A stretch of 64,000 nucleotides of DNA from a virus. The position numbers were made by a program, and so were the translations under genes. Location of the stretch: positions 62,001 to 126,000 of IMG/VR virus record IMGVR_UViG_3300013126_000012; one strand, written 5' to 3'. Positions 9,945-31,669 of the stretch are shown piece after piece. Positions within the stretch are counted from its first letter, which is position 1. Each line of letters opens with the position of its first letter. The notes under the pieces are model-generated. The model saw nothing but the letters and a program-made list of their open reading frames with translations. It did not search any database and was not told the DNA's origin.

Positions 9945-10357
9945 CATAATGGCGATTTTACGACCTTTCGTTTTCTACGAGCGTCAGCCATTGATTGTTG
10001 TTGCGATTTGCGTTGCTCTTCTTCAGCTATCATTTTTTCAATTCTACGAATCCAATAGCGTCTTAAATAAACTGGCATAGTATACAAAGTATTCCAGTCC
10101 CATCGGCCAGCACCATACCATAACATGTTAAATAAAGAATCGTGAAATTTTACTCGATCTTGTGGTTTAAAACCAAAAAAAGTCTGCTCCAATCGGAAAC
10201 CCGGAGATGAAGGTGCTCCCATCTTCACCTTCAAATTCATATCGCATAAGTAAATCTGGCATATTGTTTGCAATAAAATCTCGAAACTTTTTAGAATCTT
10301 TAGCAAAGAATTTATATCGAATAAATTCTTGAATCTCTGCTGTATTTCTTGATTCAT
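9944..10357 (-). CDS. gp51-like tail assembly chaperone domain, probably made by +1 frameshift
   Basis: The open frame spans 9944-10357, but only the part below about 10181 looks like real protein. That part has the sequence FFGFKPQDRVKFHDSLFNML followed by WYGAGRWDWNTLYTMPVYLR, a pattern I recognise from T4-type gp51 baseplate hub catalysts. The first 60 residues, which lie opposite the gp26-like frame, read like an out-of-frame translation. The ATG at 10357 has no Shine-Dalgarno sequence. The simplest reading is that the domain is attached to gp26 by a +1 slip at the T7 run at 10175-10181. The alternative is independent initiation inside gp26. Confidence 0.7.
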   Translation of the reverse strand: MNQEIQQRFKNLFDINSLLKILKSFEILLQTICQIYLCDMNLKVKMGAPSSPGFRLEQTFFGFKPQDRVKFHDSLFNMLWYGAGRWDWNTLYTMPVYLRRYWIRRIEKMIAEEEQRKSQQQSMADARRKRKVVKSPL

Positions 10358-10928
10358 TAACTTGCGTAATGCTTCGTTCTAAAAATTCTGATGTTTTTAA
10401 GTTAGTATCATCGCCCGCAGATAAAAATTTAAATTTTAGTTTAGTACCATCTGGTAATGCATAATCAAATTCTCCATTGTCATCTGATTGTAATTTAAAT
10501 TCGCCTGAATCTAATTTTGATAAATCTACAACCCGTTTTAATTCATTACGCGTTTTTGGGTCTCGAACTACAACATCATATTCTTTACCATAACTTAAAA
10601 TTCTTGCAGCAATGATTAATCCATTTTTATCTAAACGAGAAACCGTTGCATATTCTACGGGAGTTACAATCAAAGCTTCTAGCAATTTATCCAACACAAC
10701 ACCTTGTTCAAAATATGATGGATTTGTTAAAATATCTTCATCATATGCAGTCATATATCGCATTTCTATAGTACCACTCCGGAGCGGATGATCTTTAGGA
10801 TATACCATTCCGCGACTTAGCAACGGAATTATTTCGCTAGGTATATTGTTGCGTTTTTCTTGTTCGTATCGACGTTTTGCAAGTTGAATTAAATCTTGAT
10901 TTGTAACTCGATCTGTCATATTACTCAT
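10167..10928 (-). CDS. gp26-like baseplate hub/tail assembly chaperone
   Basis: A 253-residue protein. The segment LLSRGMVYPKDHPLRSGTIE followed by MRYMTAYDEDILTNPSYFEQGVVLDKLLEAL (described here in parts) is typical of gp26-type proteins of T4-like phages. C-terminal helices follow. In T4, genes 26 and 51 are adjacent and their products help to build the hub and tape measure complex. The zero-frame product ends in ADFFWF at a TAA directly after a heptameric T run, consistent with a frameshift into the gp51-like frame. The start is supported by AGGAG 9 bases before the ATG and by a late-promoter-like element 22 bases upstream. Confidence 0.85.
   Translation of the reverse strand: MSNMTDRVTNQDLIQLAKRRYEQEKRNNIPSEIIPLLSRGMVYPKDHPLRSGTIEMRYMTAYDEDILTNPSYFEQGVVLDKLLEALIVTPVEYATVSRLDKNGLIIAARILSYGKEYDVVVRDPKTRNELKRVVDLSKLDSGEFKLQSDDNGEFDYALPDGTKLKFKFLSAGDDTNLKTSEFLERSITQVNESRNTAEIQEFIRYKFFAKDSKKFRDFIANNMPDLLMRYEFEGEDGSTFISGFPIGADFFWF
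10170..10184 (-). other. Probable programmed +1 frameshift site
   Basis: Coding strand reads GAC TTT TTT TGG TTT TAA in the gp26 frame. Slippage of the second TTT codon by one base onto the next TTT keeps full pairing and moves the ribosome to GGT TTT AAA in the gp51-like frame, two codons before the zero-frame stop. The new frame is offset by +1 (equivalently -2). A -1 slip would not reach it. Confidence 0.65.
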
Positions 10929-11011: not shown

Positions 11012-11527
11012 TTAATATTGAAAGATTGCGTAATCGTATTTCAATGTTAACTGTACAGTCATTGCCTCTTCTGTTCCCCAATCCATATCACCAAATGTTG
11101 CTTCGTTGATAAATGTACCCTTCAATGTCCAGTTTTCAATCTTTTCACCTAATGAACTTAAAACATAAAATTGAACATCTCGTTTGTAGTCTGCAGAATA
11201 TCCATCTCGACCTGTTAATGATTCGTGATGCAAACGAACCCAATCCATAACTGCTTGAGCGCCAACTTTTTCAATTGGATCATACAAAGTTATTGTTATA
11301 TCATTCCATCTAGATTTTCCTTTAACTTTTCGGTCAATGTTAATGTGATCTAATACAATCTCACCATTTGTTATGCCCGGACGAGCTGAAGCTTTTACGA
11401 CGTATGATGGGATATTTGTACCAGCTAATTGCATAATAAATCGATTAGCATATTTCGGTTCCCAAGAAAACGCACTACCAAATAAATCGTTTTGACTAAT
11501 ACTAGGTAAAGTTGGTGTTAATGCCAT
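11012..11527 (-). CDS. Tail tube protein (gp19-like)
   Basis: A 171-residue protein of the length expected for T4 gp19. It has the usual tube-protein layout: an N-terminal loop (FGSAFSWEPKYANRFIMQL), a central WNDITITLYDPI strand pair, and a C-terminal TFGDMDWGTEEAMTVQLTLKYDYA strand ending the chain. It would polymerise into the inner tail tube inside the sheath. It sits alone between two strong terminators with its own promoter-like element 19 bases upstream and AAAGGA before the ATG, consistent with very high, independent late expression. Confidence 0.93.
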   Translation of the reverse strand: MALTPTLPSISQNDLFGSAFSWEPKYANRFIMQLAGTNIPSYVVKASARPGITNGEIVLDHINIDRKVKGKSRWNDITITLYDPIEKVGAQAVMDWVRLHHESLTGRDGYSADYKRDVQFYVLSSLGEKIENWTLKGTFINEATFGDMDWGTEEAMTVQLTLKYDYAIFQY

Positions 11528-11616: not shown

Positions 11617-14082
11617 CTATTCCGGGAAAGCTGCGCCCGTAGGTTGAATATTGAAATCCAATATAATGAATTCAGCCGTTCTAGTTGGTTGAAGAAGCAA
11701 TTGACCGTATAAGATGTTTTGATCAACCAAATCCGGTGTATTATTTGATTCATCCATAATAACACGGAATGCATTTAATCCTTGACGATTTTTTACATCA
11801 TCTAAATATGGATTAACGATACTTAAGAATCTTAATCGAGTTGCATCATTGTTTGGTTCAAATACCAAGTAACGAGTTGAAGATGCAATAAACTTCTTAA
11901 CTTCAATCAATAATCGACGCACATTGACTCGGTCTAACGCACTTGGAGTTGATTGTAGAGTCTTTTGCCCCCAAATAACTACGCCCTCATTAGGGAAGTT
12001 TGCAATAGGATTAACGCGCGCTGCATATAATGTATCTCTATCTGATTGAGTCAATCTTTTATATGTATCTGTTACAGAACTTAATCCTCCGCGGTTTAAA
12101 CCTGCCGGAGCATACCATGGAGCAGAAATTTGATCGGTAAATGCTAATACTCCTGGTACTACCGTTGATGGCGGAACCCATAATGGAGCATTAGTTGATG
12201 GATTTACAATACGCACCCATGGCCAATATGTTGACGTATAATTGCTATTGATTGTGGTAACTTGATTGGTAACCGTTGTAATATTATCAGTTAATGCATT
12301 CGAATCCATTACATAGAATGTATCTTGACGATTCTCAGCCAGTAAACGAGCTAATGATGTTACTGCAGAGTGAAGGCTATCAACGATACCCGGCGTAATC
12401 AATAAATTCATATCATAATAATCAGTATTTCCTAACAATGAAAATGCTTTATTATATGCAATTGTACCAGTGCTTGTTGAATTTGAACAATTGAAGCCGA
12501 ATGTATTTGCTGCTGTAATATACTGCCCTGAATATTTTTTCAGGTTTGGCTTAGCTCCATCGAAACCACCTTGCATTGGAACAATAAATTTGCGCGTTGT
12601 TAATGCAATATTTGTTGCAAATGTTGATCCAGTTAATGCACCTTCTAATGAAGCAGAATATGGTGCGGTTGCTGTAGGAAACCCTGCTGCCCCATCTTGA
12701 TTTACGCTACCTAAATAAAAATCAGCATTGCTTCCGGTGTTTGATCCCGAAGTTGGAGTTGCTGATAAATAATTCAAGTTATTAACATTGCTAAAGTTAT
12801 ATCCGAAATATGTATTTGAATTGAAACCCGTTGCGGATACTTGTGAACTAATCGTTGCTGTTGAAACTAAATTCAATGAACCGGAGGCCATAGGAATTGT
12901 TGATAATAATGCACGATAACCGAAAGGAATCAATGTTTTATCATTTGTTCTATTTGCAACACCATCAGATACTTCTACTCGAATATAATTTGATTGATTT
13001 GGATAATCTCCATATACTGTTAATACGCCATCATTATCTACGGTTTGATAACGATCGCCAATCACTCTAGCAATATATCTAGATGAATTTGGATTTAAGT
13101 TAACATTAGTAAATGCTTCTACTGCTGGAGATAAATCAGTATCGGTACGTAATCCGTAAACTGAATTTGGAATATTTGTTGTATTTACTCGTCGTACTTC
13201 TACTGTAAACGTACCATAACCATTTGGATCAGCTACTTCTGTAGCAGTACGAATATCTTTAATACCTATCTTAACATCGTAGTTAACAGCAGTACCTTGT
13301 GATATTGAATGGAATCGCAATAAATCTTTTGCAATTGCGCCAACTTTTTGCGACGTAATCCATGGCGTTGCTGCGGTTTGAAAGTCTTGTACAAATTCAT
13401 AATTTGAAAATTTGAAAAGCTCCATGGTTACATCACCTAAATTTGCAAATTGCGAATAGGCTGTTGGATTTTCATATTGCACATATACTGGATAATCAGT
13501 CGACTTTGGTGATTGACCAAATCGTTTTACAAGATAATCATTGCTTGTTGCAACAATTGATGACGAAATTGCAACAGCTTGAGATACTAAGAATGATCCA
13601 TTAAATCCAATTGCCGAATCTGATGCAGCGGAGAATGAACCTGAAACTTTGATTGCAAATGAACCAGATCCACCATCTAGCAATACCGATTCATTAAATA
13701 CATTGGTTGCTCCGTCAGTTGTTACTGCTTGTACTGGGTGTAATACGTGTGTTACAACTTGGGTTGAACCAGATTTTGCAATAATTGCTAAAGCGCCATT
13801 AGTTAATTTATATCCATCTTCATAAAGCAATCGTGTTACAGTAATTACATTTCCGCCATTTGCTAAATAGTTTTGAACTACATATGGTAAATATGAATCA
13901 TCTGTATATGTTCCAAATACTTGTTGGAACTGAAAGAACGATGTGATTTGTGTTGGAACTAAAGCAGGTCCTTTTACTGTTGGTCCTATGATTGCTGCTC
14001 CAATTTGTGATATTCCTCCGGCGAGAAACGATTGATCTACTTCATTCGTAAATACCCCCGCAGAAATTAAATTTTGTGCCAT
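11617..14082 (-). CDS. Tail sheath protein (gp18-like)
   Basis: An 821-residue protein. The N-terminus (SAGVFTNEVDQSFLAGGISQ, then GAAIIGPTVKGPALVPTQIT) and C-terminus (NVRRLLIEVKKFIASSTRYL, then FEPNNDATRLRF) are the classic contractile sheath signatures. The last 60 residues, ending in DFNIQPTGAAFPE, form the conserved handshake region. The middle is long and beta-rich, which makes it larger than T4 gp18 and suggests an extra surface domain. It is flanked by its own promoter-like element (20 bases upstream, AGGAG ribosome binding site) and a UUCG terminator, so it is probably a single-gene late unit. Confidence 0.95.
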   Translation of the reverse strand: MAQNLISAGVFTNEVDQSFLAGGISQIGAAIIGPTVKGPALVPTQITSFFQFQQVFGTYTDDSYLPYVVQNYLANGGNVITVTRLLYEDGYKLTNGALAIIAKSGSTQVVTHVLHPVQAVTTDGATNVFNESVLLDGGSGSFAIKVSGSFSAASDSAIGFNGSFLVSQAVAISSSIVATSNDYLVKRFGQSPKSTDYPVYVQYENPTAYSQFANLGDVTMELFKFSNYEFVQDFQTAATPWITSQKVGAIAKDLLRFHSISQGTAVNYDVKIGIKDIRTATEVADPNGYGTFTVEVRRVNTTNIPNSVYGLRTDTDLSPAVEAFTNVNLNPNSSRYIARVIGDRYQTVDNDGVLTVYGDYPNQSNYIRVEVSDGVANRTNDKTLIPFGYRALLSTIPMASGSLNLVSTATISSQVSATGFNSNTYFGYNFSNVNNLNYLSATPTSGSNTGSNADFYLGSVNQDGAAGFPTATAPYSASLEGALTGSTFATNIALTTRKFIVPMQGGFDGAKPNLKKYSGQYITAANTFGFNCSNSTSTGTIAYNKAFSLLGNTDYYDMNLLITPGIVDSLHSAVTSLARLLAENRQDTFYVMDSNALTDNITTVTNQVTTINSNYTSTYWPWVRIVNPSTNAPLWVPPSTVVPGVLAFTDQISAPWYAPAGLNRGGLSSVTDTYKRLTQSDRDTLYAARVNPIANFPNEGVVIWGQKTLQSTPSALDRVNVRRLLIEVKKFIASSTRYLVFEPNNDATRLRFLSIVNPYLDDVKNRQGLNAFRVIMDESNNTPDLVDQNILYGQLLLQPTRTAEFIILDFNIQPTGAAFPE

Positions 14083-17424: not shown

Positions 17425-17438
17425 TTTTATATAAATAT
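17425..17438 (-). promoter_or_regulatory. Late-promoter-like element
   Basis: Coding strand ATATTTATATAAAA, 13 bases before the ATG at 17411, followed at once by AGGAAC. Confidence 0.6.
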
Positions 17439-17443
17439 AAGCA

Positions 17444-19511: not shown

Positions 19512-19516
19512 GATTA

Positions 19517-20743
19517 CTATCCTATATATATTAATAATGGCACTTTAGATAACATTTCATGCATCTGAGTTGCTTCTGCATTTTGACGTGTCATCATTTG
19601 TTCTTTTGTCAATTTATCTAAAAACTCTCTAAGTTGAGTTATTAATGCTTCTTTTTCTGTTTGGCCTTGTGATACTAAATCCGAACCGTTGAGTGTTACT
19701 TCGCCATTAGGAATTGGTACGCTACTGTATTTATTGCGAATATATCCTAACATTTCTTTAGCTAACGCAATTCCGTATTTAATAATCCACGCACGGCCCA
19801 TATCATTAATGTTACTGTAGTTTTGATATGTATATGGTATATTTGATGCGTCCGTTATAACATTGTTTACAAGTGCTGTATTGCCGAATAAAAGTGCTTC
19901 ATTGTTTTTATCATCATCAAATATAAAATCAACATATACATTTTTAAAATATGGTGTTGCAGAACTAGACCCGCTCGGCGCTACCGGTACAGGCCATAAT
20001 GTTATTTCATCTCCATGTATTTCAAATGAATAACTAGATTTACGTACCTGATCATTAAATTCAATTGCTTGTAATCTAAATAAATCTGCATTAATTGGCA
20101 TCATCATAAATGATACTGATGGAGAAAAACCTCCAAAATCAAATGCATCTAATAATTGTTGCGACCCTAAACCAGTTCCGACAAATGGATCAAAATATCT
20201 TACAATTGCAGGTGGTGCATTATGAAGCACCCGTTTTATTTCTACTGAGCTAGTTTGTACAATTATACCTAATGATGCCGAAATTGCATCTTTGATATTA
20301 TATGTTTGTTGGCCAGGGATAACATCAATTCTAAACTGTTTCCAATCTATGTTACCGCCACTATTAGCTTCAGTACCATATGCTTTTGAAAGCTTTGTAA
20401 TATATCCAAATGAATTTCCAACAAGTGCTCCAGTTAAACTAGAACCACTTAAAAATGCAGATGCTGTTTGTACACCTAATGTGTTGATCAAATTGTTAAC
20501 AATATTAACTTGATTAACTTGATTTGAATATTCGATAATTGCAGCTTCAAATGCAGTATAAAAATTAAGTGCTTGCATTTCAACATCCATTATTGGATAT
20601 CCTAAGTGTTGAGCTGCCGCGGATGCAAATTTATCCGCATGTTGTTGAAATAGTGGATCGTAATCAAAAAAGCCCCATGGCGTTTCTCCGGGTGCAAATG
20701 ATGAACTTCCTGGCCATATTGGACGATTTTCTGAATAATCCAT
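19517..20743 (-). CDS. gp13-like neck protein
   Basis: A 408-residue protein. The C-terminal part has RAWIIKYGIALAKEMLGYIR, NKYSSVPIPNGEVTLNGSDL and a following helical QTEKEALITQLREFL segment (about 300-380), which I recognise as the conserved end of gp13-type neck proteins. The N-terminal half carries helices and beta strands without a recognisable motif. It starts the neck operon with its own promoter-like element 13 bases upstream and AAGGAA before the ATG. Read-through messages could hide this start in a hairpin (20742-20774). Confidence 0.78.
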   Translation of the reverse strand: MDYSENRPIWPGSSSFAPGETPWGFFDYDPLFQQHADKFASAAAQHLGYPIMDVEMQALNFYTAFEAAIIEYSNQVNQVNIVNNLINTLGVQTASAFLSGSSLTGALVGNSFGYITKLSKAYGTEANSGGNIDWKQFRIDVIPGQQTYNIKDAISASLGIIVQTSSVEIKRVLHNAPPAIVRYFDPFVGTGLGSQQLLDAFDFGGFSPSVSFMMMPINADLFRLQAIEFNDQVRKSSYSFEIHGDEITLWPVPVAPSGSSSATPYFKNVYVDFIFDDDKNNEALLFGNTALVNNVITDASNIPYTYQNYSNINDMGRAWIIKYGIALAKEMLGYIRNKYSSVPIPNGEVTLNGSDLVSQGQTEKEALITQLREFLDKLTKEQMMTRQNAEATQMHEMLSKVPLLIYIG

Positions 20744-20774
20744 TGATATATTCCTTTTTCATATAAATATCAAT
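20742..20774 (-). promoter_or_regulatory. Hairpin enclosing the late-promoter-like element and covering the gp13 start
   Basis: Coding strand ATTGATAT (20774-20767) pairs perfectly with ATATCAAT (20749-20742), whose last bases are part of the gp13-like start codon. The promoter-like element (20757-20770) and the AAGGAA site lie in the stem-loop. Only a transcript that begins upstream of the element can form it. Confidence 0.5.
20757..20770 (-). promoter_or_regulatory. Late-promoter-like element of the neck operon
   Basis: Coding strand ATATTTATATGAAA, one base off the WWW consensus, 13 bases before the ATG at 20743. It sits just after the PhoH stop at 20770. Confidence 0.55.
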
Positions 20775-21435
20775 ACGTTTCATTTAGAAGTTTTAAAATT
20801 TCATTTAATGATTCGTGTCGATGATTATCTAATAATATTATTTCATTAACATACTGTGATTTTGTTAATTTAGGTACTTCGTGCACAGCTGAATCATTTG
20901 AGAATTTTAAATCTATTTGATAACGATCTCCCGTTAATATCATGATACTATCTTTACCTAAACGAGATACAACCATTTGAAGTTGTTGTTTAGTTAAATT
21001 TTGGAATTCATCTACGATACAAACAGCATGATCGAAAGTCCGACCTCGGAAATGTGCTAAAGAAACTAATTCAATGTGTTCTTCTCGTTCCAATTTATCT
21101 AATATATCCGGTTTATTATAAACTTTACGCATATTGCTACGTAAAGGAACTAACCATGGATCCATTTTTTCTGCTAAAGACCCGGGAAGAAATCCGTTAT
21201 CTTCATTTGATACTGTAGGCCGTGTTATGATAATTTTATTTATTTTTCTTTTAAAAAACATATCCAATGCAACTTGAACTGCTAACAATGTTTTACCAGA
21301 TCCAGCTTTACCTAAAATAAAATTAAATGGTGTTTCTATAATTTTTGATTTGGCTCGTTTTTGTTCTTGAGACAATGTTATTGAAAATTTAATGTCATTT
21401 TTTGGTGGAGTTTTTTCTCGATTTTGCGTAGTCAT
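20770..21435 (-). CDS. phoH: PhoH-like P-loop ATPase
   Basis: A 221-residue protein. Walker A is GKAGSGKT at about 41-48, the PhoH segment RPTVSNEDNGFLPGSLAEKM at about 75-95, Walker B IVDEFQN at about 140-146, and a sensor-like ILTGDRYQID at about 165. PhoH-type ATPases are very common in T4-like phages. The family is linked to phosphate stress and RNA metabolism in bacteria, but its phage role is unknown. It follows a 91-residue unknown gene and precedes the neck operon, the same neighbourhood (after the capsid gene) as in many aquatic T4-like phages. Confidence 0.95.
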   Translation of the reverse strand: MTTQNREKTPPKNDIKFSITLSQEQKRAKSKIIETPFNFILGKAGSGKTLLAVQVALDMFFKRKINKIIITRPTVSNEDNGFLPGSLAEKMDPWLVPLRSNMRKVYNKPDILDKLEREEHIELVSLAHFRGRTFDHAVCIVDEFQNLTKQQLQMVVSRLGKDSIMILTGDRYQIDLKFSNDSAVHEVPKLTKSQYVNEIILLDNHRHESLNEILKLLNETY

Positions 21436-21451
21436 AACTAACCTTTTTTCG

Positions 21452-21727
21452 TTAAAATAATTTTGTAAGTGTTGATTCGCGAAGTGTCATATCTTTCAAC
21501 GTCTCAATTTTACCTAAACAAGCTTGGCGTAACGCTTTATAAGTTTCTCTTGGAGCATATGGTGTCATTACTTTAATTGTAATTAATTCTTTGTCTTTAC
21601 CAAGATCTTGTTCAATATGAACCATTAAAACTAAACTTATTGCACGAATTCTATCTAACACATCTACTAATCTACCATTATAGCGTATAATAGTTTGCAT
21701 TGAATATTTGTTATATGATACTGCCAT
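21452..21727 (-). CDS. Hypothetical protein, 91 aa
   Basis: Not recognised. It is a soluble mixed alpha/beta protein with several basic residues (YNGRLVDVLDRIRAISLVLM, then IEQDLGKDKELITIKVMTPY). A promoter-like element lies only five bases upstream of the ATG. It is followed 16 bases later by phoH, so the two are cotranscribed. The capsid gene terminator lies just upstream, making this the first gene of the phoH unit. Confidence 0.75.
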   Translation of the reverse strand: MAVSYNKYSMQTIIRYNGRLVDVLDRIRAISLVLMVHIEQDLGKDKELITIKVMTPYAPRETYKALRQACLGKIETLKDMTLRESTLTKLF

Positions 21728-21732
21728 AATCT

Positions 21733-21746
21733 TTTAATATAAATAT
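21733..21746 (-). promoter_or_regulatory. Late-promoter-like element of the phoH unit
   Basis: Coding strand ATATTTATATTAAA, five bases before the ATG at 21727, immediately downstream of the capsid terminator. Confidence 0.55.
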
Positions 21747-21756
21747 ACAACCAGTA

Positions 21757-21785
21757 AAAAAGGGTGACCGAAGCCACCCTTTCTC
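21757..21785 (-). terminator. Intrinsic terminator with UUCG loop after the capsid gene
   Basis: Coding strand AAAGGGTGGC-TTCG-GTCACCCTTT forms a long stem with a C(UUCG)G tetraloop, followed by TTTTA. It lies 48 bases after the capsid stop at 21833 and is built on the same plan as the sheath terminator. Confidence 0.9.
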
Positions 21786-21832
21786 TTTTAATTAGTTAAT
21801 TCGTTAAATATAAAGCTAATCGAAGTTAACTA

Positions 21833-23500
21833 TTAAAGCGTGTTAAGACCGTGAACGTATACTTTTCCGTAGAATTCAGGACGAACTACTTTCTTCGCAT
21901 AACGTGTCATAACACCTTTACGTGGAGTGAAGTTTACTGGATCATATACAAGCGGAGTCATAATCAACGGAATATATGGGCTAAATACAGCACCTGTTTC
22001 AAGGAACTGTGCACCACGGAATCCCATAAGGATTACATTCTCTAACATGTATGGGTTTTTGTATACTGTATAACGGTTATTGATGCTACCAATTTTTTGA
22101 ACACCTGCAGCAAATTCCATTTTGTTACCATCTGTCTCAGCAGCAAATCCTGGGATAGACTCAAGGATAGTTGCAACTGCAGGAGATGTTACTAAGAAAT
22201 TAGCACCACCACGTAATGTTTTTTGGTGAATCTTATTAGATACTTTTTGAAGTTTGGTACCTAAAGTTTGGAACCATCCACCTTGGGTGTTGTAATATCC
22301 ATCACCAACCGCAGTAGCTGCACCAGCACCAGATTGAGTAAATCCAGAACCGTTCCAGAAGTTGTTGTTTAATGCTGACCAATACTCAGTTGTTGGAGCT
22401 GCTGAAATCAACATATCAAGGATTTCAAGATCGATTTCCATTGATACATATTCAGACAACATTGAAGTTAATTCAGCTTCAGCATCAATTGAATGGTATG
22501 CATTTAAATCTTGAGCAAATTCAGGAGTCCATACTGCTTTCAACTTACGAGTCTTAGCAACAATTGGCTCAGATTGCATTTCAAGGTTGATTTCTGGTAT
22601 ATCAATATCAACACCAGTGTTAATACCTGTATTAGCAGAAGATCCTTTGAATGGATTTTTGTCTTCAAAATCACCACGCGTGATATCGGTAGGTTGTTTG
22701 CTATAATTTAATTTGAAATTTCCAGCACCGATTGATGAAGAAATTGCAGCTGCTTGAGTTGTTGTTACAATAAATGATGCAGTGTAATTGCTAGTAATAG
22801 TTGAAAATGCTTGTACCGGGATAATTTCAGTCTCTCCAGATCCAGAAGCAAATGTCCAAGAACGTACTGCATATAAATCAGCATCAGTAGGTACATTGAC
22901 AGTTACGGTTTTGTAACTTGATAATGCTGTTGTAAAATTACCATCATAATTAACAGATGCTGAAGTAGCATTAGTTGAACTCGTTTCTGCAGTTACAGCG
23001 GTAGTTGTATAAGGAATTGAATATCCAAAACGACCAGCACCATAAAGACCGCCAGCTGCATCACTACCAGTTGTAGTAACACCAAACATTGAGTCTAATG
23101 CATTAGGATTTCCAAATGGATCTCCGGTACGATTTAAATTATCATCATCAAATCCCGGTACAGCTGTACCATATTTGAAGTCAAGATAGAAAATAAGACC
23201 TGATGGCAAATTCATTGGTTGAACTGAAACGAATTCTTTTGCTGCAAATTCAGCAAAAATACGACGTACCAATGGAAGTGCTACACCTGCCCACTCTTCT
23301 GATCCTTGTGCAGTTCCAGTTGCAGATGATTCTTTTACTAATTGACGTGCTTGGTTTTCAAGCAATTGTGCCATTCCGGCACGTTCGGTTTCGCCACGAA
23401 GACCTTCTAAAAGTCCCGTTCTTTCCCATTTCGTTACCAACGCTTTTGCATTGTTTCGTTGAACGAAATCATTTGTTTGTAATAAGTTTGAAATACTCAT
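21833..23500 (-). CDS. Major capsid protein (gp23-like)
   Basis: A 555-residue protein. The N-terminal arm (LVTKWERTGLLEGLRGETER, then AQLLENQARQLVKES) precedes PLVRRIFAEFAAKEFVSVQP and MNLPSGLIFYLDF, the standard gp23 pattern. The late segment GGANFLVTSPAVATILESIP is the conserved A-domain strand-helix. Residues about 145-290 are a Ser/Thr-rich insertion (SVNYDGNFTTALSSYKTVTV and following), possibly a surface domain. It forms the capsid shell after cleavage by the gp21-like protease. No promoter-like element precedes it directly, so it is probably read from the scaffold promoter. AAAAGGAAAACG precedes the ATG. Confidence 0.96.
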   Translation of the reverse strand: MSISNLLQTNDFVQRNNAKALVTKWERTGLLEGLRGETERAGMAQLLENQARQLVKESSATGTAQGSEEWAGVALPLVRRIFAEFAAKEFVSVQPMNLPSGLIFYLDFKYGTAVPGFDDDNLNRTGDPFGNPNALDSMFGVTTTGSDAAGGLYGAGRFGYSIPYTTTAVTAETSSTNATSASVNYDGNFTTALSSYKTVTVNVPTDADLYAVRSWTFASGSGETEIIPVQAFSTITSNYTASFIVTTTQAAAISSSIGAGNFKLNYSKQPTDITRGDFEDKNPFKGSSANTGINTGVDIDIPEINLEMQSEPIVAKTRKLKAVWTPEFAQDLNAYHSIDAEAELTSMLSEYVSMEIDLEILDMLISAAPTTEYWSALNNNFWNGSGFTQSGAGAATAVGDGYYNTQGGWFQTLGTKLQKVSNKIHQKTLRGGANFLVTSPAVATILESIPGFAAETDGNKMEFAAGVQKIGSINNRYTVYKNPYMLENVILMGFRGAQFLETGAVFSPYIPLIMTPLVYDPVNFTPRKGVMTRYAKKVVRPEFYGKVYVHGLNTL

Positions 23501-23530
23501 CGTTTTCCTTTTGTTTGTTTTTTTTTTGTT

Positions 23531-24568
23531 TTACAATAATCCAGCTAATTTTTTCCATCTGTTAGCTAATTCAAAGCCTTCAGATAAAACTTGGGTTGTT
23601 TCTACTCTTGGCGCCGTAGTTGTAATTGGTTTAGAAGCATATGATTCTTTAACTACTCGTTTCTTTGTTGGTCTTTTAAAACTTTCAGCCAATGTAGCAA
23701 AAACTAATTTTGCCTCTCTTGTATTGCCAGCTCTGTCAAAATTTTCAATTACTTTCATTTTTTGAGGTTCTGACAATTCAAAATTGCGGAATAACTTGTT
23801 TGTGTAAAGAAGTTTAGCATTAAGCAAGTTTACTTCATTGATAACAGTTTGAAGATGTTTAACTGTGCGATATGCTTCTGTAAGTTCTTCATTTTTTGCA
23901 TCCAATTCCATTTCCATTGCTTCCATTGGCGTTTGTTTTTTAGACGCCATCATATCTTCTTCATCCTCTTCACGAAGAATAGCTTCAATGATTTCATCAA
24001 TTGACTCAGAAGTCATATCATCTTCTGCATCATAGCCTTCCGCAGTCATATCATCTTCTGCATCATAGCCTTCCGCAGTCATTTCGTCTGATCCTAGATC
24101 GCCCGTAGTCATTTGGTCTGATTCTAGATCGCCTTCTAATTCACGAATGATTGATTCGATATTTAAATCGCCGTCATACATTCCTTCATTGTACTCGGCA
24201 GTCATTTCTTCGTCACTCGGTACTTCTTCTTCTGCAGTATCTGCAACTTCACCACCACCTTGTGAATAAATGTCGAATTCATCAAATTCACCATCACCAT
24301 CAACATCAATTGATAAATCACCAACATCATTTCCACCCGGAAGTGTTTCTGCTGCAGCAGCAGCATTCATGTCCTCACCAGCTTCTTTTCCGCCAGTCAT
24401 GTCCATGTCTTCTTCGCCTTCGATCTCGTTTGTTAACTTAGTTGATAACATTCTTTCTAATCTAGGTGCGAAGGCTTCTTGTAAAGCAATTTTTGCGTTT
24501 GCTAAAGCAGTTTCTTTAACAGCTTTTGCGTCAGCAATTGCTTCTTTTAGCAAGTCTGATTTTGCCAT
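23531..24568 (-). CDS. Prohead scaffold core protein (gp22-like)
   Basis: A 345-residue, highly acidic protein. The N-terminal helix (SDLLKEAIADAKAVKETALA) is followed by a very Asp/Glu/Met-rich central region (about 45-210) with a perfect tandem repeat, EDDMTAEGYDA twice and then EDDMTSES. Next comes a coiled coil (about 215-250). The C-terminus (LSEGFELANRWKKLAGLL) looks like a capsid-binding tail. The family forms the core on which the capsid assembles and is degraded by the gp21-like protease. It lies directly upstream of the capsid gene. AAGGAG precedes the ATG and the 5' leader is about 100 bases. Confidence 0.88.
   Translation of the reverse strand: MAKSDLLKEAIADAKAVKETALANAKIALQEAFAPRLERMLSTKLTNEIEGEEDMDMTGGKEAGEDMNAAAAAETLPGGNDVGDLSIDVDGDGEFDEFDIYSQGGGEVADTAEEEVPSDEEMTAEYNEGMYDGDLNIESIIRELEGDLESDQMTTGDLGSDEMTAEGYDAEDDMTAEGYDAEDDMTSESIDEIIEAILREEDEEDMMASKKQTPMEAMEMELDAKNEELTEAYRTVKHLQTVINEVNLLNAKLLYTNKLFRNFELSEPQKMKVIENFDRAGNTREAKLVFATLAESFKRPTKKRVVKESYASKPITTTAPRVETTQVLSEGFELANRWKKLAGLL
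23995..24083 (-). repeat. Short tandem repeat inside the scaffold gene
   Basis: Two identical 33-base units (coding for EDDMTAEGYDA) and a diverged third, around 24000-24080. The nucleotide identity of the first two copies suggests recent duplication. Confidence 0.75.
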
Positions 24569-24668
24569 CGTTTCTCCTTAAATTTTGTTTTTTGGAAATA
24601 AGATTATTTGAAATCTTAATAGAATATAAATAATAAGTATAAACGCTATATAAAGATGAATAGCGTAT
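24569..24668 (-). promoter_or_regulatory. Long leader of the scaffold-capsid unit
   Basis: About 100 bases with no ORF lie between the promoter-like element and the scaffold ATG. A second, imperfect copy of the element (coding strand TTATTTATATTC) lies at about 24621-24632, so two starts are possible. The leader ends in AAGGAGAAACG. Confidence 0.4.
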
Positions 24669-24682
24669 TCTAAAATAAATAT
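24669..24682 (-). promoter_or_regulatory. Late-promoter-like element of the scaffold-capsid unit
   Basis: Coding strand ATATTTATTTTAGA, 100 bases before the scaffold ATG and 20 bases after the terminator that follows the bS21 gene. The AAA half is imperfect. Confidence 0.5.
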
Positions 24683-24702
24683 AGCACCGTTTGAAAAACC
24701 AG

Positions 24703-24735
24703 TAAAAAAGCCCTAACTTTTTTTGTTAGGGCCTA
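24703..24735 (-). terminator. Intrinsic terminator after the bS21 gene
   Basis: Coding strand GCCCTAAC-AAAAAAA-GTTAGGGC (24732 to 24710) followed by TTTTTT. It closes the portal-protease-bS21 operon and insulates the scaffold-capsid unit. Confidence 0.92.
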
Positions 24736-24753
24736 CTTTTTTTGTTAAAAGAA

Positions 24754-24990
24754 TTAAAATGAATTTAAATCTTTAATTCGTTGAATGAATGCAGCTCGTT
24801 TTTTCTGTGCTCGTTTTTCAACACACGGTTTTATAAATTCTTTGCGTTGTTTAACTGCTTCTAAAACTCCTGCCGATTTTACTTTACGTTTCCAGGTTCT
24901 TAAAGCAAACCCTAAATCTTGATTTACTACGTTAACTGCCGTTGCATTACCTGGTAAAATGCTTTGATGTTGTTTTTGGTGTTTATTCAT
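24754..24990 (-). CDS. rpsU: Ribosomal protein bS21 homologue
   Basis: A 78-residue basic protein. Residues 19-75 match bS21: VNVVNQDLGFALRTWKRKVK, then SAGVLEAVKQRKEFIKPCVE and KRAQKKRAAFIQ. It begins with a short extra N-terminus. bS21 sits at the 30S platform next to the anti-Shine-Dalgarno end of 16S rRNA. Phage-encoded bS21 is known and is presumed to exchange into host ribosomes. From memory, the FIKP..KRAQ..AA(F/Y)IQ stretch is closest to Bacteroidota bS21. There is no Shine-Dalgarno sequence before its own ATG. It is the last gene of the portal-protease operon, followed by a strong terminator. Confidence 0.88.
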   Translation of the reverse strand: MNKHQKQHQSILPGNATAVNVVNQDLGFALRTWKRKVKSAGVLEAVKQRKEFIKPCVEKRAQKKRAAFIQRIKDLNSF

Positions 24991-25002
24991 GTATAACTAT
25001 TT

Positions 25003-25578
25003 TTAAATTTTTCTAGATGGTTTAGAATTTCTTACATTAAATCTAAAATGTTTTAATTCTGGTTTTTGTGCTAAATATCCTTGAAGTTTTTGAGATTCTA
25101 AAGCAGGATCTTGTCCTAAACGAAAATAAAAATAACCAATTTTCTTATTTGGAGAAATTATTTTTTTAATTATAGTAAAGCCTTTTCGTTTTGACCATTC
25201 TTGTATTTCTTGTGCAACTAATTCTGCAGTAGATGGATCTCGCAATACATATTCAATTCCGCCTCTATAATCTGTAATGTTATTAACTAGTTGTGCTTCG
25301 TCAATATCAATCTCTTTAATAGCCTTCTTACGTACGTTTCTGCGATTTTTTAAATAACGATCTGTTTTGGTATTTTTCTTTCCATCATTATCTATATCAT
25401 CATCTTCATGCCCAACTGGATCTAAATCTTCAGTTGTCATACCCGGCTTAACTAATTTAACAGTCATTCCTTTTTTAGCCATTTCTTCTGCTTGTTTTGG
25501 ATCTTCAGTTTCTATTTTACCAGCAGCTTCGGTTAAACCGAAAAAATCACGATATAATTTTTTTAATGAATTCATCAT
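25003..25578 (-). CDS. Head-associated protein with EF-hand/dockerin-like loop
   Basis: A 191-residue protein of unknown function. Residues about 58-80 contain DDDIDNDGKKNTKTDRYLKN followed by RR, a D.D.DG....D..L calcium-loop pattern as in EF-hand or dockerin modules, set in a charged, probably disordered N-terminal half. The C-terminal half (about 95-190) is a folded-looking basic alpha/beta domain (ELVAQEIQEWSKRKGFTIIK, then NKKIGYFYFRLG). It lies between the protease and scaffold genes, so a prohead role is likely by position. AAGGTAAGA precedes the double ATG. Confidence 0.75.
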   Translation of the reverse strand: MMNSLKKLYRDFFGLTEAAGKIETEDPKQAEEMAKKGMTVKLVKPGMTTEDLDPVGHEDDDIDNDGKKNTKTDRYLKNRRNVRKKAIKEIDIDEAQLVNNITDYRGGIEYVLRDPSTAELVAQEIQEWSKRKGFTIIKKIISPNKKIGYFYFRLGQDPALESQKLQGYLAQKPELKHFRFNVRNSKPSRKI

Positions 25579-25618
25579 TCTTACCTTTAATATAATAAGT
25601 TTTTTTCAAACAACCAAA

Positions 25619-25996
25619 TTATCCTACTTCGAAGTAACGATTCAAATGTTGTCCAATATTTTCATATGCAATTGCCATTCGATCTTGTGCTTCTTTTAAA
25701 TCTCGTGCAGCTTGTTCAAAATCACGATAATCTTCATGCATTCGTTTGTTACCTTTTTTATGAGCAACATTTGCCATCCAATCATCACTTTCGGTCATAA
25801 TTTTATCTGCACGATCTACAATTTGTTTAACACGTTCAACAATCTGCTCTAAGTCACCTTTACCATATACCCCATCACTCATTGCAGAAAAATTAGCAAT
25901 CTCTTGAACGAATGCTTGTTTTTCTTCACGTGTCATTGGCTTAGGTTGATCTTGCAGCAATGTTTCTAAAATGAATTTTAAATTTGGTGTTTTCAT
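25619..25996 (-). CDS. Hypothetical helical protein, 125 aa
   Basis: Not recognised. It is entirely helical in appearance, with MTREEKQAFVQEIANFSAM, DLEQIVERVKQIVDRADKIM and a long C-terminal helix (DYRDFEQAARDLKEAQDRMA). The start overlaps the protease stop as TAATG, so translation is coupled to that of the protease. It could be a prohead core component, since small helical core proteins (gp67/gp68 types) lie near gp21 in T4. That is inference from position. Confidence 0.75.
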   Translation of the reverse strand: MKTPNLKFILETLLQDQPKPMTREEKQAFVQEIANFSAMSDGVYGKGDLEQIVERVKQIVDRADKIMTESDDWMANVAHKKGNKRMHEDYRDFEQAARDLKEAQDRMAIAYENIGQHLNRYFEVG

Positions 25997-26628
25997 TATA
26001 TTATCCTACATTTTCCATCTTCACATAAAATTGATGTGATAATGTTATTTACTTTTGCGTATTTATTTGTTGTTATATTTTTATTTACTGATTCGTGCAT
26101 GTGCGTAGGACGCATAAAAGCTCCATGGGTAGACGGATTAGATACAAAGTCCCAACATATCAATTCAAAATCTTCTTGGACTTCTACGGTGCCTTCATTA
26201 CGTAATTCTTTAACTGACCCTAACCCTCGCGAGGAAATTCCCAATATAATTCCAGCTTTAAAAAGTTCCTTAAGAATTCTACCAGATGGCGTATCTAAAA
26301 TTTGTACAGCTCCATGTAAATCATCACCTTTCCACCAAATTTTTAAAACATTATGAGAAACGTTATTTAAGTTTACTACTGATGATTCTGGATGATCTAA
26401 TTCGCCTAATGCTCTATGTTGATCGATATATTCCATTTGATAACGTTGACATTCTCTTTCTAAAATACGTTTTGGATATATACGACCGTTTTGATTTTTA
26501 GCGCCTGCTCGTTGCAAAACTCCTTGAACAACAAAACCACCAGGTATTCCATATGCAGCACCCGATGATTCAGTTAATGAACCTATAGGTTTAAACGGAA
26601 TATATTCTACTATCAGTTGTTTTGACAT
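25996..26628 (-). CDS. Prohead maturation protease (gp21-like)
   Basis: A 210-residue serine protease of the T4 gp21 (U9/herpesvirus-like) type. The probable catalytic His is in GELDHPESS at about 76-84 and the Ser in GISSRGLGSV at about 130-140. The N-terminal FVVQGVLQRAGAKNQNGRIY, then PKRILERE is also typical. It cleaves scaffold and capsid proteins inside the prohead and then itself. The C-terminal 30 residues look like a removable tail. AGGAG precedes the ATG and it is cotranscribed with its neighbours on both sides. Confidence 0.93.
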   Translation of the reverse strand: MSKQLIVEYIPFKPIGSLTESSGAAYGIPGGFVVQGVLQRAGAKNQNGRIYPKRILERECQRYQMEYIDQHRALGELDHPESSVVNLNNVSHNVLKIWWKGDDLHGAVQILDTPSGRILKELFKAGIILGISSRGLGSVKELRNEGTVEVQEDFELICWDFVSNPSTHGAFMRPTHMHESVNKNITTNKYAKVNNIITSILCEDGKCRII

Positions 26629-26629
26629 T

Positions 26630-27322
26630 TTATTCTCCTAATGCTCTTACTCGCTCCGATATTTTAATTAATCTTTCTGATATTTTATTTAGTGCGTTAT
26701 CTACAGAAGGACCATAGCCGTTTCTAGCAACACCAGATTCGTTTTTTAATTGAGATGCATACTTTACTGTTTGTTCAATTGATTGAAGCTGTTTTGCAAC
26801 TTCTTTAATTGTATGTTTAATTTTAGATTCGGGCGTTAATTTTGCATTGCCGGTAGCATATGAACGATATGATTCAATAAGTTGTTCATATTTAGAATCT
26901 AGCATTTCATCAATATTATGTTTGATTTTTTTAGTTTTGTCTTTTTTACTAGCAGTTCTCGGCGTACCTGTTAAATTTTTTGACGGGTATTCATAGTTTT
27001 TATGTTGCCAAATACCATCGTTTTCTGCAAAAGAAAATTTATCAGTATATTCTTCTTCATCCTCTGGTTTTTGATAAGAGCCTAATGTCCAATCAGCTGG
27101 TTTATTTACAGATTCATATGTTTTATTTTTATTTCGCCATTTTCCTGGTGCTGCAAATGCTGCAGGTATATTATATCCGGCAACTCCGCCGGTACCGGAA
27201 ATTTCATCAATCTCTTGGCTTTTACAAATACATTGATCCATAGGACGATCACATGCATCACAATAATCTGCAGATTCTATCACAATGAATTTTTCTTCAA
27301 TTTGTTTTAAAAACGATTTCAT
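26630..27322 (-). CDS. Head-operon protein with N-terminal Cys cluster
   Basis: A 230-residue protein of unknown function. The N-terminus has CDACDRPMDQCIC at about 19-31, a likely zinc-binding knuckle. It is followed by EISGTGGVAGYNIPAAFAAP, a motif I associate with several phage structural proteins. The C-terminal 90 residues form a coiled coil (SKIKHTIKEVAKQLQSIEQT and on). The start touches the stop of the upstream gene at 27322 and the stop lies one base before the protease start. A prohead core or portal-associated role is plausible from context only. Confidence 0.75.
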   Translation of the reverse strand: MKSFLKQIEEKFIVIESADYCDACDRPMDQCICKSQEIDEISGTGGVAGYNIPAAFAAPGKWRNKNKTYESVNKPADWTLGSYQKPEDEEEYTDKFSFAENDGIWQHKNYEYPSKNLTGTPRTASKKDKTKKIKHNIDEMLDSKYEQLIESYRSYATGNAKLTPESKIKHTIKEVAKQLQSIEQTVKYASQLKNESGVARNGYGPSVDNALNKISERLIKISERVRALGE

Positions 27323-28216: not shown

Positions 28217-30058
28217 TTATAAAATGTTGTTTTCATCTAACAATGTGTTTTTATCTGAATCATCTTGTGTTTGTTTTGGTTTTAATGATTCCGTAATTAT
28301 AGACACGCCTTTATTTTTTATTTTTAAATGTTTTAATATGTCATGACCTTCTGCGGATACCGGACGATTGTTTCGATTCCATCTAGTATCCGGTTGAAAT
28401 GTTGTTTGTTGATTTTGTGGATTGAATACTTGTTTTAATTCTTTTCTACCGGTAAGATCCCATCCAAATGCATTTTTATGTTGACCGGACTTAATTCCTT
28501 CTTTTGGCCTGCCGCCTTTATCTTTTTCTTCTACTTCACCCGATGACATATGAATTGATGCTAAATCATGAGGAGTTCCATATGACACTCCAGTAACTGC
28601 AGGATCATTGCCTTCTTGTTCAATTTGGTTTTGACGGAATCTTAATTTTAAATCTTCTACAACATCACTTCGTTCTTGAAGCCATTGTTCTTCGGACATA
28701 TTAAATATGTATTCGTAAATGTATCTATCTGAAACTAGTTTTGAATCTTTCATAGCAGTTGCTAATGTCATTTTTTCAGTCATTAATGCAACTTTTTGTT
28801 GATCATATATGATTGATGGAGCCGTTAATTCCAATTGAAAACTAACCAAATCTTCACCTTCAAATCCTTGAGCATATAAATGTACAATTGCAATTTTAGT
28901 TAATTCAGAAATTGCAATTCTTTGAATTCGTTCGATTGTTCTAGCAAAACGAATATCCATTGCAGCTAATGTGGTTTTTCCCTCTACTCCTTCTTCATAT
29001 CCTAAAAATGCTTTTGGAATTTTTAAAGCCGCCATCATTTTATCTTTAACATAATTAATGTCATCCATTCCGGTAAAAGTCATACCCGGTAATGTATCAA
29101 TTGATGTTGTAGAGTTACCGCCGCGGACTGGTAAATAATAATCTTCTAACATATTGTTAAGATTAAATTTTAAATTGTAATTACCAGTTTGTTGATCGAT
29201 ATGTGGAATTTTTCTCATTTTATTAATAATCGTTTCCATAAATGAATCAACTTCATTTGGTGGAATGTTACCAATATCAATTTTAAATATACGTTTTTCT
29301 GGTGCACGCATAATACGATGAATTAACATCGCATCTTCCATCATCATTAATTTTTGAAATTCTTTACGAGCTCCTTCTAACATTGATCTGCCATATGGTA
29401 AAAAATTAGAATCTGATAACATTCGGAAATGTGCCATTTCAAAAACATCATACGTAATATTTGGACTACCAACGTGACGAAATTGAATTTTATATTCTCC
29501 CGTTGCTTCATCATATTCTTCAAATCGTTCTACTTCATATGCAGATAATGGTCGAACATTTAATACTCCAATCTCTTCTGCAATATCTAGTTTCAAAAAG
29601 AAATCCCCATATTTTACCATGTTTCGAATCCATGTCCATAAATTGAATTCTATATTTAAAACATCATAAAATAAATTATAAAGTATTTTTTGTACGTTTG
29701 ATTTGTCTGTTTTGATCGTTAGGATATCTCCAAATTGATCAGCTAATGTTGATTCATCTGAATATATATCGAGTGCTGAACTAATAATAGGATCTCGGTC
29801 CATCATTTCATAGTCAGCATAAAGCTGCATACGATTTTGATGCATATAGTAGTTAGAATCATAACCACCCATACCTCCAACCATGTGCTTATTTGCACCA
29901 TGCATTCTAGTATATCTATCTGCAACTTTGGTTTGATTTAAATTACCGACACCTTGTAGTCGGTTTGTATCTATTACTCGAAGTTTATCTTTACCATAAG
30001 CTCGAACAACCACATTCGTAGCAAATAGATTTTGTAAGCGTTTTCTTAGTGTCGGCAT
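28217..30058 (-). CDS. Portal vertex protein (gp20-like)
   Basis: A 613-residue portal, longer than T4 gp20. Typical segments are YADYEMMDRDPIISSALDIY followed by SDES (about 70-95), FNLWTWIRNMVKYGDFFLKL (about 135-155), APEKRIFKIDIGNIPPNEVD (about 255-275) and KIPKAFLGYEEGVEGKTTLA (about 345-365). It forms the dodecameric DNA channel and packaging motor dock. The last 130 residues are charged and low in complexity, an extension beyond the portal core. It has its own promoter-like element 13 bases upstream and follows terminase. Confidence 0.95.
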   Translation of the reverse strand: MPTLRKRLQNLFATNVVVRAYGKDKLRVIDTNRLQGVGNLNQTKVADRYTRMHGANKHMVGGMGGYDSNYYMHQNRMQLYADYEMMDRDPIISSALDIYSDESTLADQFGDILTIKTDKSNVQKILYNLFYDVLNIEFNLWTWIRNMVKYGDFFLKLDIAEEIGVLNVRPLSAYEVERFEEYDEATGEYKIQFRHVGSPNITYDVFEMAHFRMLSDSNFLPYGRSMLEGARKEFQKLMMMEDAMLIHRIMRAPEKRIFKIDIGNIPPNEVDSFMETIINKMRKIPHIDQQTGNYNLKFNLNNMLEDYYLPVRGGNSTTSIDTLPGMTFTGMDDINYVKDKMMAALKIPKAFLGYEEGVEGKTTLAAMDIRFARTIERIQRIAISELTKIAIVHLYAQGFEGEDLVSFQLELTAPSIIYDQQKVALMTEKMTLATAMKDSKLVSDRYIYEYIFNMSEEQWLQERSDVVEDLKLRFRQNQIEQEGNDPAVTGVSYGTPHDLASIHMSSGEVEEKDKGGRPKEGIKSGQHKNAFGWDLTGRKELKQVFNPQNQQTTFQPDTRWNRNNRPVSAEGHDILKHLKIKNKGVSIITESLKPKQTQDDSDKNTLLDENNIL

Positions 30059-30091: not shown

Positions 30092-31669
30092 TTACAGAAG
30101 CCAGGTTAAATTTTCATTGTCGCGGCCATTGTTCCAGTGCCAACCATCTGCATTTGTTGATGGCTTACCCGTAAAAATAACTGATTCTGTTGTTTTTGTG
30201 AATTGAGAAAGTGTACGTTTGTGTAATTCAATTCCTTGTTGTCGCAGTTTAAGCGAAGTATCTCGTAACCATAATCCGATACAAAATGACATAACGAGGT
30301 CATCATTATAACCATTTTGTGATTGTGCTTTGCCATTTAACCAGATAAACACAAACAATTCTTGTATCAATCTTTTTGAACGAATTACGGGCGTTTGTTC
30401 TCGCATATACATTTCAAGTGCTGATATCATTAATGGACGCGTACGTGAGGTTGTTGATACTCCTGGAACCATTTGTGATTTATCCTTCATATCATAACCT
30501 TTTTTAAGTTGCACATCTACATCAACATATCCATCATCTTTATATGTATAAAATAAATTTTCATAGCTTCGGTCTAATGCGGGTTGAATTGCTGCCCAAC
30601 CAATATTGGCATTTTCTATTGCTAGCAATGCGTTGTTCCATTCCGTTGCAACCGATACGAGCATATTGCCAAAATCTTTAGGAGGCAATTTACCTTTATA
30701 TTCTGCAACCTGTGATACGCTTTCAACATCAATAACATGAAAAGTAGACCAGTCGGCGCCATCTCCTCGTGCAACGTCGGCTACTACTATGTAATTTTTT
30801 TCATAGTTAGGATATTCCCAAATCCAATATGCATTATCAAATCCTCTGCGTTCAATTGGCTCACTGCATTTATTTTCATAATCTAAAAGAATAGAACCAT
30901 CTATTACAGTATGACCGGATGAAATAAAATCACAGTCACATTCTTGTGCTGCACTTCGTTCTCCTAGCAATTGAGTTTGTTCATCGCGCCATTGTTGATC
31001 TCGATCCGGATGTACGGTCCAATGCAATTTAATTGTGTGAAATCCGTTGATGTTTGATTCAGCATCTGCCCAAGTTTGATGAAACCAATTACCTACCCCA
31101 TTAGGTGTAGATAATACAACCGCACCGCCACCTGTTGATAATGTTGCTTGCGATGCTACCCATATTTCTTCAATGTTTCGAATAAATGCAGCCTCATCAA
31201 TAATTAACAACGATAATGCTTCTGAACGTGCGCCTGTGGTTGCAGATGAAACTGCTTTAATTTGCGAGCCATTTTTAAACTTCAACGAAAGTTTGTTGTC
31301 CGCTTCAATAGTTCCCTTCAACCAACTTGGTAAATTATCATGCATTACGCGCACTTTAGTTACCAAGTTTTTTGCTACTTCTTGAGTTGTTGCAATAACA
31401 AGAACATTGAAATCTTCTTTAAACAACATGCTCCATAAAGCAAAGCCGGCAGCTAACGTTGATATACCTAACTGACGAGATTTCAAAATTACATTGTATC
31501 GATTATCTCGCAATTCGGTTAATGTATTTTCCTGAAAATCGTAAAGATTAAACTTAATCTTACCTAATTTTGGATGTTGAATATAACAATATTGTCGCAT
31601 AAAGAAAACAGGATCTTTAGCACACATTGTATACTGTTGTTGAATGATCTGTTTTATGTTTTGTGACAT
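30092..31669 (-). CDS. Terminase large subunit (gp17-like)
   Basis: A 525-residue ATPase-nuclease. Walker A is in VILKSRQLGISTLAAGFALW (about 60-79), Walker B is LLIIDEAAF (about 154-162), and coupling motif VVLSTPNG follows near 185. The RNase H-like nuclease domain begins at YIVVADVARGDGADWSTFHV (about 290-310, catalytic Asp) and has NDDLVMS near 455. It packages DNA through the portal. The stop is 33 bases before the portal ATG. A small terminase subunit is not evident among its neighbours. Confidence 0.97.
   Translation of the reverse strand: MSQNIKQIIQQQYTMCAKDPVFFMRQYCYIQHPKLGKIKFNLYDFQENTLTELRDNRYNVILKSRQLGISTLAAGFALWSMLFKEDFNVLVIATTQEVAKNLVTKVRVMHDNLPSWLKGTIEADNKLSLKFKNGSQIKAVSSATTGARSEALSLLIIDEAAFIRNIEEIWVASQATLSTGGGAVVLSTPNGVGNWFHQTWADAESNINGFHTIKLHWTVHPDRDQQWRDEQTQLLGERSAAQECDCDFISSGHTVIDGSILLDYENKCSEPIERRGFDNAYWIWEYPNYEKNYIVVADVARGDGADWSTFHVIDVESVSQVAEYKGKLPPKDFGNMLVSVATEWNNALLAIENANIGWAAIQPALDRSYENLFYTYKDDGYVDVDVQLKKGYDMKDKSQMVPGVSTTSRTRPLMISALEMYMREQTPVIRSKRLIQELFVFIWLNGKAQSQNGYNDDLVMSFCIGLWLRDTSLKLRQQGIELHKRTLSQFTKTTESVIFTGKPSTNADGWHWNNGRDNENLTWLL

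Follow-up and report, generated by a model that had tools for sequence, protein, structure and literature searches.

The head locus and its bS21 gene

The stretch of DNA analyzed (hereafter the window) comprises 64,000 bases, positions 62001-126000 of the 159,586-base record IMGVR_UViG_3300013126_000012 (G000), which belongs to a T4-like phage. A gene for ribosomal protein bS21 lies within its head locus (Table 1). In transcript order, the terminase, portal, and protease genes are located upstream of bS21, and the scaffold-position gene and the major capsid protein (MCP) gene downstream. The product of the scaffold-position gene had no match in the PHROGs comparison, and its putative role is assigned from its position.

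Table 1. Features of the head and tail region, in coordinates of the window
Feature	Position	Strand	Shine-Dalgarno (SD) site or leader	Basis
Large terminase (TerL)	30092..31669	(-)	Without SD	PHROG
Portal protein	28217..30058	(-)	Without SD	PHROG
Prohead protease	25996..26628	(-)	AGGAG	PHROG
Phage bS21, 78 aa	24754..24990	(-)	Leader without SD	
Terminator-like hairpin and T run, directly 3' of bS21	24708..24734	(-)		
Leader of the gene after bS21	24569..24690	(-)	Conserved: TATATTTATT motif, two hairpins, then AAGGAG	
Putative scaffold, 345 aa	23531..24568	(-)	AAGGAG	Position
MCP	21833..23500	(-)	AAGGA	PHROG
PhoH-like protein	20770..21435	(-)	4-mer AAGG	PHROG
Head-tail adaptor	19517..20743	(-)	AAGGA	PHROG
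Tail sheath	11617..14082	(-)	AGGAG	PHROG
Tail tube	11012..11527	(-)	AAGGA	PHROG
Baseplate hub	10167..10928	(-)	AGGAG	PHROG

The bS21 identity, first assigned from the sequence with exact coordinates, was confirmed by both Pfam (Ribosomal_S21, 39.2 bits; cut-off 27) and NCBIfam (S21p, 38.1 bits; cut-off 28.95). Among solved structures, the top match is the bS21 of Flavobacterium johnsoniae (7jil, 36.8 bits), with the runner-up at 28.2 bits. As far as the available description of the F. johnsoniae protein extends, the two share the core, the C-terminal helix, and the ribosomal site at which the anti-SD is hidden, but F. johnsoniae bS21 has no extension, a Tyr54, and a strong SD on its gene, whereas the window bS21 has an extension, a Phe, and no SD. 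The N-terminus of the window protein is about 14 residues longer than that of Flavobacterium bS21, with 24 residues ahead of the core compared with about 10 in host proteins, and the short N-terminus (MLIIPIKDGENID) is absent. Its Phe68 aligns with F. johnsoniae Tyr54, and thus the aromatic character is retained but not the tyrosine itself. AlphaFold prediction with 25 relatives gave a pLDDT of 81 for bS21; residues 3-9, in the extension, are predicted to form a short helix, and residues 26-39, 42-50, and 55-76 form others. The best host match reached 34.8 bits among 247 genomes of the phylum of a Flavobacteriales MAG and 26.7 bits among 249 genomes of the phylum of a Maricaulis MAG, the phyla resting on the titles of the MAGs on which the searches were centered. 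Judged by this similarity, the window bS21 is Bacteroidota-type, in agreement with the original prediction.

The bS21 gene had also been placed in a "head operon." It does lie within the head locus, but co-transcription with the capsid gene is improbable, because bS21 is directly succeeded by a terminator-like hairpin and the gene downstream carries a leader of its own. A similar terminator-like hairpin was found in 38 of the 70 relatives in view. The leader carries a late motif, two hairpins, and a TTTCC ahead of the SD, and matched no Rfam family at the gathering score. Compensatory changes were detected in four of the five pairs of the first hairpin, each in 4-11 of 33 sequences, and the second hairpin is nearly invariant. 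The TTTCC could pair with the SD of the scaffold-position gene; RNAalifold also pairs the leader TTCC with the SD (four pairs, weak).

This conserved leader, with its covarying hairpin and SD, adjoins bS21 and raises the alternative that the bS21 fold serves outside the ribosome, as an RNA-binding regulator of the leader or as a virion-packaged protein. The helix that AlphaFold places in the extension may suit such a role, and packaging is suggested in the available text of Chen 2022 (PMC9723584). However, SD use reaches far past the scaffold-position gene, and the leader is not dependent on bS21. Among the capsid relatives listed, a similar second hairpin was present in 34 of the 51 loci whose bS21 is N-terminally extended, in 0 of 19 with a short bS21, and, together with TTTCC, in 7 of 74 without bS21, which indicates that this hairpin either predates bS21 or is independent of it. 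We consider an extra-ribosomal role very improbable.

SD sites in the window and among relatives

For window genes of at least 60 aa, AGGAG or AAGGA was found at -19 to -5 in 13 of 59 genes, compared with 0 of 59 in an equal control window (-49 to -35). When any 4-mer of AAGGAGG was counted, 28 of the 59 genes had a site at SD distance versus five in the control. The sites are concentrated in the stretch running from the protease gene to that of the baseplate hub; at 10167-27322, an SD 4-mer precedes 17 of 19 genes, bS21 being among the two that lack one. The SD-led virion genes recognized by PHROGs are those of the baseplate hub, tail tube, sheath, head-tail adaptor, MCP, and protease. The earlier observation of AGGAG or AAGGA sites on at least a dozen genes, described there as virion genes, beside an SD-less bS21 is confirmed, several of the SD-led genes being virion genes by PHROGs. 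Across the whole record, 54 of 165 genes have an SD versus 11 in the control window.

Capsid relatives were then compared using mechanical gene calling, which started at the first ATG, took the longest ORFs that overlap little, and, where no other limit is given, required at least 90 aa. In a first scan of viral contigs, 56.7% of 504 genes at 39 bS21 loci were SD-led (control 10.9%), compared with 10.2% of 304 genes (control 10.5%) at 21 loci classed as lacking bS21, for which 5 kb ahead of the capsid gene was required; 19 loci were unclassed. With three further scans, at least 270 capsid-relative loci were obtained, or 216 after merging capsid proteins at least 97% identical. Among the 216 listed, 51.8% of 1019 genes were SD-led at 70 bS21 loci (control 8.8%) and 13.4% of 1108 genes at 74 loci without bS21 (control 8.5%; 4 kb required), while 72 loci, left unclassed because the sequence ahead of the capsid gene was too short, had 25.1% of 518 genes SD-led.

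Extended and short bS21 forms were separated by hand. Among the capsid relatives listed, all 51 extended-bS21 loci were SD-rich (L298, cut at the edge, being assigned to the extended class) versus 7 of 75 without bS21, rows with fewer than six genes having been removed from this table and from the tree test below. The MCP gene had an SD at 44 of 44 extended-bS21 loci versus 14 of 70 without bS21 among those listed. Likewise, anti-SD pairing of -5 kcal/mol or lower was predicted for 47.8% of 693 genes (control 9.4%) at the extended-bS21 loci listed and for 10.8% of 1108 genes (control 9.9%) at the bS21-less ones. The short-bS21 loci listed comprised 12 SD-high and seven SD-low loci, the former including three assigned to the short class with L331 and L334 having no Met in view and L340 having 23 residues. 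All seven SD-low bS21 loci listed have a short N-terminus of 8-17 residues ahead of the core, and perhaps some short-bS21 loci come from SD-using hosts. The notion that any phage bS21 brings SD use was rejected, as 7 of the 19 short forms listed are SD-low. Of the seven SD-high loci listed without bS21, one belongs to a record with bS21 elsewhere, and six are fragments of 10-49 kb. The proposed tie between bS21 and SD use is thus upheld in that the SD signal tracks the extended phage bS21 across the relatives listed. The option that the phage protein covers the anti-SD was not borne out, since SD use is higher where the extended bS21 is present.

The loci of this comparison are not independent evidence one by one, because the capsid tree contains only five independent well-supported pairs, of which about four were concordant, 0.1 opposed, and 1.0 without difference (p = 0.125). 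In a first, smaller capsid tree, three independent pairs were all concordant in most pairings.

Residue 54 in the SD-rich loci listed is Tyr, Phe, Arg, Lys, Leu, or Ala. As both aromatic and non-aromatic residues occur in SD-rich loci, Tyr54 loss was discarded as the sole cause; given this variety and the aromatic Phe of the window protein, it is not the common route either.

Among named phages, Mel-JY01 and immuto have the nearest terminases, 58.7% and 53.5% identical, respectively. Microcystis phage Mel-JY01 (PP395634) shares with the window phage an annotated RpsU at the same place of the head locus and a high proportion of SD-led genes (73 of 199, 37%, versus 11 in the control), but its bS21 is of another clade, has Arg at position 54, and has its own SD. 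Flavobacterium phage immuto (MW353175, Immutovirus) shares a capsid protein 61% identical, a comparable arrangement of the head-locus genes, a similar late motif, and similar early promoters, but lacks bS21 and avoids SD sites before genes (4-mers in 7 of 163 genes, 4.3%, versus 26 of 163, 16%, in the control window). G011 is similar to immuto in that SD-like 4-mers are scarcer directly before genes than further upstream (10 versus 27 of 160), which hints at avoidance in both phages.

Over whole records, nine extended-bS21 phages have 27-40% SD genes, and G016, a record without bS21, has 18.5% versus 3.7% in the control. The cultured Bacteroidota phages phiST (0/47), phi17:2 (2/33), and crAss001 (11/39; control 14), surveyed over 44-50 kb each, thus have no SD excess by the measure used. 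T4, the positive control, has SDs in 29 of 40 genes (44-50 kb), and other T4-like phages of SD-using hosts include HTVC008M (18/41, with bS21) and P-SSM4 (10/29). These values, similar to or higher than those of the extended-bS21 phages, agree with an alternative in which the host accounts for the pattern. Extended-bS21 phages would infect bacteria with an open anti-SD, either of other phyla or of SD-using groups related to Bacteroidota, and bS21-less phages would infect SD-less Flavobacteria, with no causal tie to bS21. The non-significant phylogenetic test is also in line with this explanation, which we regard as possible but doubtful. If true, SD use would be an inexpensive way to tell which type of host an uncultured phage has.

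Genes with and without SD sites

Among the distinct extended bS21 genes of the first set, only 1 of 83 has an SD (Mel-JY01), compared with 68-96% of their neighbors (two genes before, 53/77 and 55/81; two genes after, 61/70 and 45/47). In the capsid-based set listed, the bS21 gene is SD-led in 0 of 19 and 1 of 19 cases in the two clades near the window and in 11 of 12 in the Mel-like clade. A rule that bS21 never has an SD therefore holds near the window and fails in the Mel-like clade. On the Bacteroidota side, host rpsU has a GGAGGT leader in 15 of the 20 loci shown (L480-L499), in agreement with PMC9976891, and the SD-less phage bS21 genes of the window clades are thus the opposite of host rpsU in this respect.

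In the nine extended-bS21 records, SDs precede the genes of the capsid (9/9), tube (9/9), sheath (8/9), SSB (7/9), GroEL (5/7), and RecA (6/9) proteins but hardly those of terminase (0/9), portal (1/9), DnaB-like helicase (0/9), and clamp loader (0/9). With promoter motifs that were defined after inspection of the same records, SDs were found behind 10 of 72 early-type promoters and 117 of 245 late motifs in eight extended-bS21 records (Mel-JY01 left out), compared with 1 of 54 and 5 of 152 in bS21-less records. The late-infection role envisaged earlier is retained to the extent that SDs are scarce on early-promoter genes and abundant on late-motif genes. It holds only in part, and SDs confined to late genes were rejected, since SSB, RecA, and GroEL genes are SD-led and TerL and portal genes are not; lateness alone is insufficient for an SD, and the pattern reflects high demand as much as lateness. 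It fits both high demand and delay after infection. That SDs are present on SSB, RecA, and GroEL genes, not on late genes alone, is also compatible with a host effect, but in a phage of an ordinary SD-using host it would be odd for early genes to be SD-poor and for bS21 genes to lack an SD.

Host assignment

Bacteroidota promoters have the elements TTTG or TTG and TAnnTTTG. Sites of the form TTG-N18..22-TANNTTTG number 19 in Mel-JY01 (0.8 expected from shuffles) and 11 in G003 (0.2 expected). The early promoters of immuto read TTG-N-TANNTTTA, and similar sites occur in G004, G003, and G001 and, more weakly, in G000, where three sites also match TTGA-N-TATAAT. The suspected Bacteroidota link is strengthened by this resemblance to a cultured Flavobacterium phage, and as both the promoters and the bS21 similarity point there, the window phage probably infects Bacteroidota. 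The Bacteroidota-type promoters of Mel-JY01 and G003, the immuto-like ones of G004, G000, and others, and the G000 bS21 being nearest Bacteroidota speak against the alternative that the SD pattern merely follows hosts of different kinds.

Three other host clues lean toward that alternative: Mel-JY01 is registered from Microcystis, its bS21 scores higher with the proteobacterial than with the Bacteroidota profile, and the binned relatives, six GTDB contigs of which one has bS21, carry mixed host labels. The Bacteroidota profile is preferred by 30 of the 53 extended bS21s listed. No match to the NeuB-like gene of the record was found at 1e-60 in the 247 and 249 genomes, and no bS21-bearing relative that could serve as a host clue was found in genome contigs. 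In the case of Mel-JY01, whose promoters are Bacteroidota-like and whose relatives include a Flavobacterium phage, the bacterium actually infected may be a companion in the Microcystis culture.

A proposed switch of ribosome specificity

Phage bS21 has already been proposed to take over Bacteroidetes ribosomes for late translation, and its aromatic residue 54 was argued to keep the anti-SD blocked (Chen 2022, PMC9723584, available text). The phages described there share with the window phage a bS21 near the TerL, portal, protease, and capsid genes, nearest to Bacteroidetes versions and with an aromatic residue 54. They differ in that bS21 lies opposite to the structural genes (clades a-e) and on the same strand here. 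Their complete genomes are 293-331 kb; our record, whose completeness is not given, has 159.6 kb. A count of SDs in phage genes was not found in the available text of that study. According to the available text of McNutt 2023 (PMC9976891), phages carry bS21 more often than any other ribosomal protein, and ribosomes of F. johnsoniae with altered or missing bS21 can use SDs; SD-led translation rises when the bS21 C-terminus is truncated, with the Y54A change, or when bS21 is depleted, and the bS21 gene has a very strong SD with autoregulation. The bS21 of pelagiphage HTVC008M was shown to enter Escherichia coli ribosomes, as the available text of PMC6375957 reports. HTVC008M is likewise a T4-like phage with bS21, but it has an alphaproteobacterial host, SD-rich genes, and a bS21 of 67 aa, by its length not the extended form. 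In the literature searched, no link of phage bS21 to SD use, no co-occurrence of extended phage bS21 with SD-led genes, and no SD-less phage bS21 gene was found.

In Bacteroidota, host bS21 helps keep the 3' tail of 16S rRNA, with the anti-SD, in the bS18/bS6 pocket. We propose that the N-terminally extended phage bS21 displaces host bS21 on 30S subunits, so that the tail would be free to pair. SD-led phage mRNAs (capsid, sheath, tube, scaffold, SSB, RecA, and GroEL) would then be preferred over SD-less host mRNAs. In clades like that of the window, bS21 and the majority of genes behind early-type promoters have no SD and could be read by unmodified host ribosomes. This would let the switch begin and may restrict bS21 once SD-preferring ribosomes dominate. 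Our analysis establishes the protein itself, the enrichment of SDs and how it goes with extended bS21, and the lack of an SD on bS21 and its scarcity on early genes; we infer the host phylum, incorporation, the freeing of the anti-SD, and the preference for SD-led mRNAs. The data fit anti-SD freeing better than the blocking reading of Chen 2022 (PMC9723584, available text) and suggest a re-tuning of the host ribosome by the phage. The chances appear evenly balanced that phage bS21 makes an SD-reading ribosome while being itself translated without an SD. With somewhat more doubt than belief, we extend this to an altered initiation code in a phylum that hides its anti-SD, in which extended bS21 enables SD recognition, high-demand genes are SD-led, and the switch message is SD-less.

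Several observations stand against this mechanism, namely the tree-corrected p of 0.125, the aromatic residue 54 retained in the window bS21, the mixed SD levels of the short-bS21 loci, the better score of Mel-JY01 bS21 with a proteobacterial profile, the Bacteroidota profile being favored by only 30 of the 53 extended bS21s listed, the SD-high loci without bS21 (seven listed), and the SD excess of bS21-less G016. Furthermore, HTVC008M has bS21 although its host is SD-using, and bS21 genes of the Mel-like clade are SD-led in 11 of 12 cases. The retained aromatic residue would also suit a scheme in which the phage removes or titrates host bS21, so that bS21-less ribosomes translate the SD-led genes and the phage bS21, with its blocking residue, keeps the remaining ribosomes working. 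The gain of SD use by F. johnsoniae ribosomes without bS21 and the speculation about phage products acting against host bS21 (both in the available text of PMC9976891) favor this scheme, as does the strong SD of host rpsU compared with none on phage bS21. But the SD signal tracks the presence of extended bS21, and no depletion factor was identified, and we think it improbable. The proposed replacement of host bS21 offers a specific, testable function, virus-made specialized ribosomes read out by a known sequence signal, and F. johnsoniae, with ready genetics and a known structure, is a candidate test host.

Other regions of the record

At 27.4-36.4 kb of the record, 5' of the window, lies a group of sugar genes including a NeuB-like gene, a hydroxyacid dehydrogenase, two epimerases, and glycosyltransferases. 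Past the window (126-159 kb of G000), and at 99-111 kb of G004, repeated early-type promoters are followed by AGAGAG leaders and then small genes. Some of these repeated promoters match both TTG-N20-TANNTTTA and the sigma-70 pattern.
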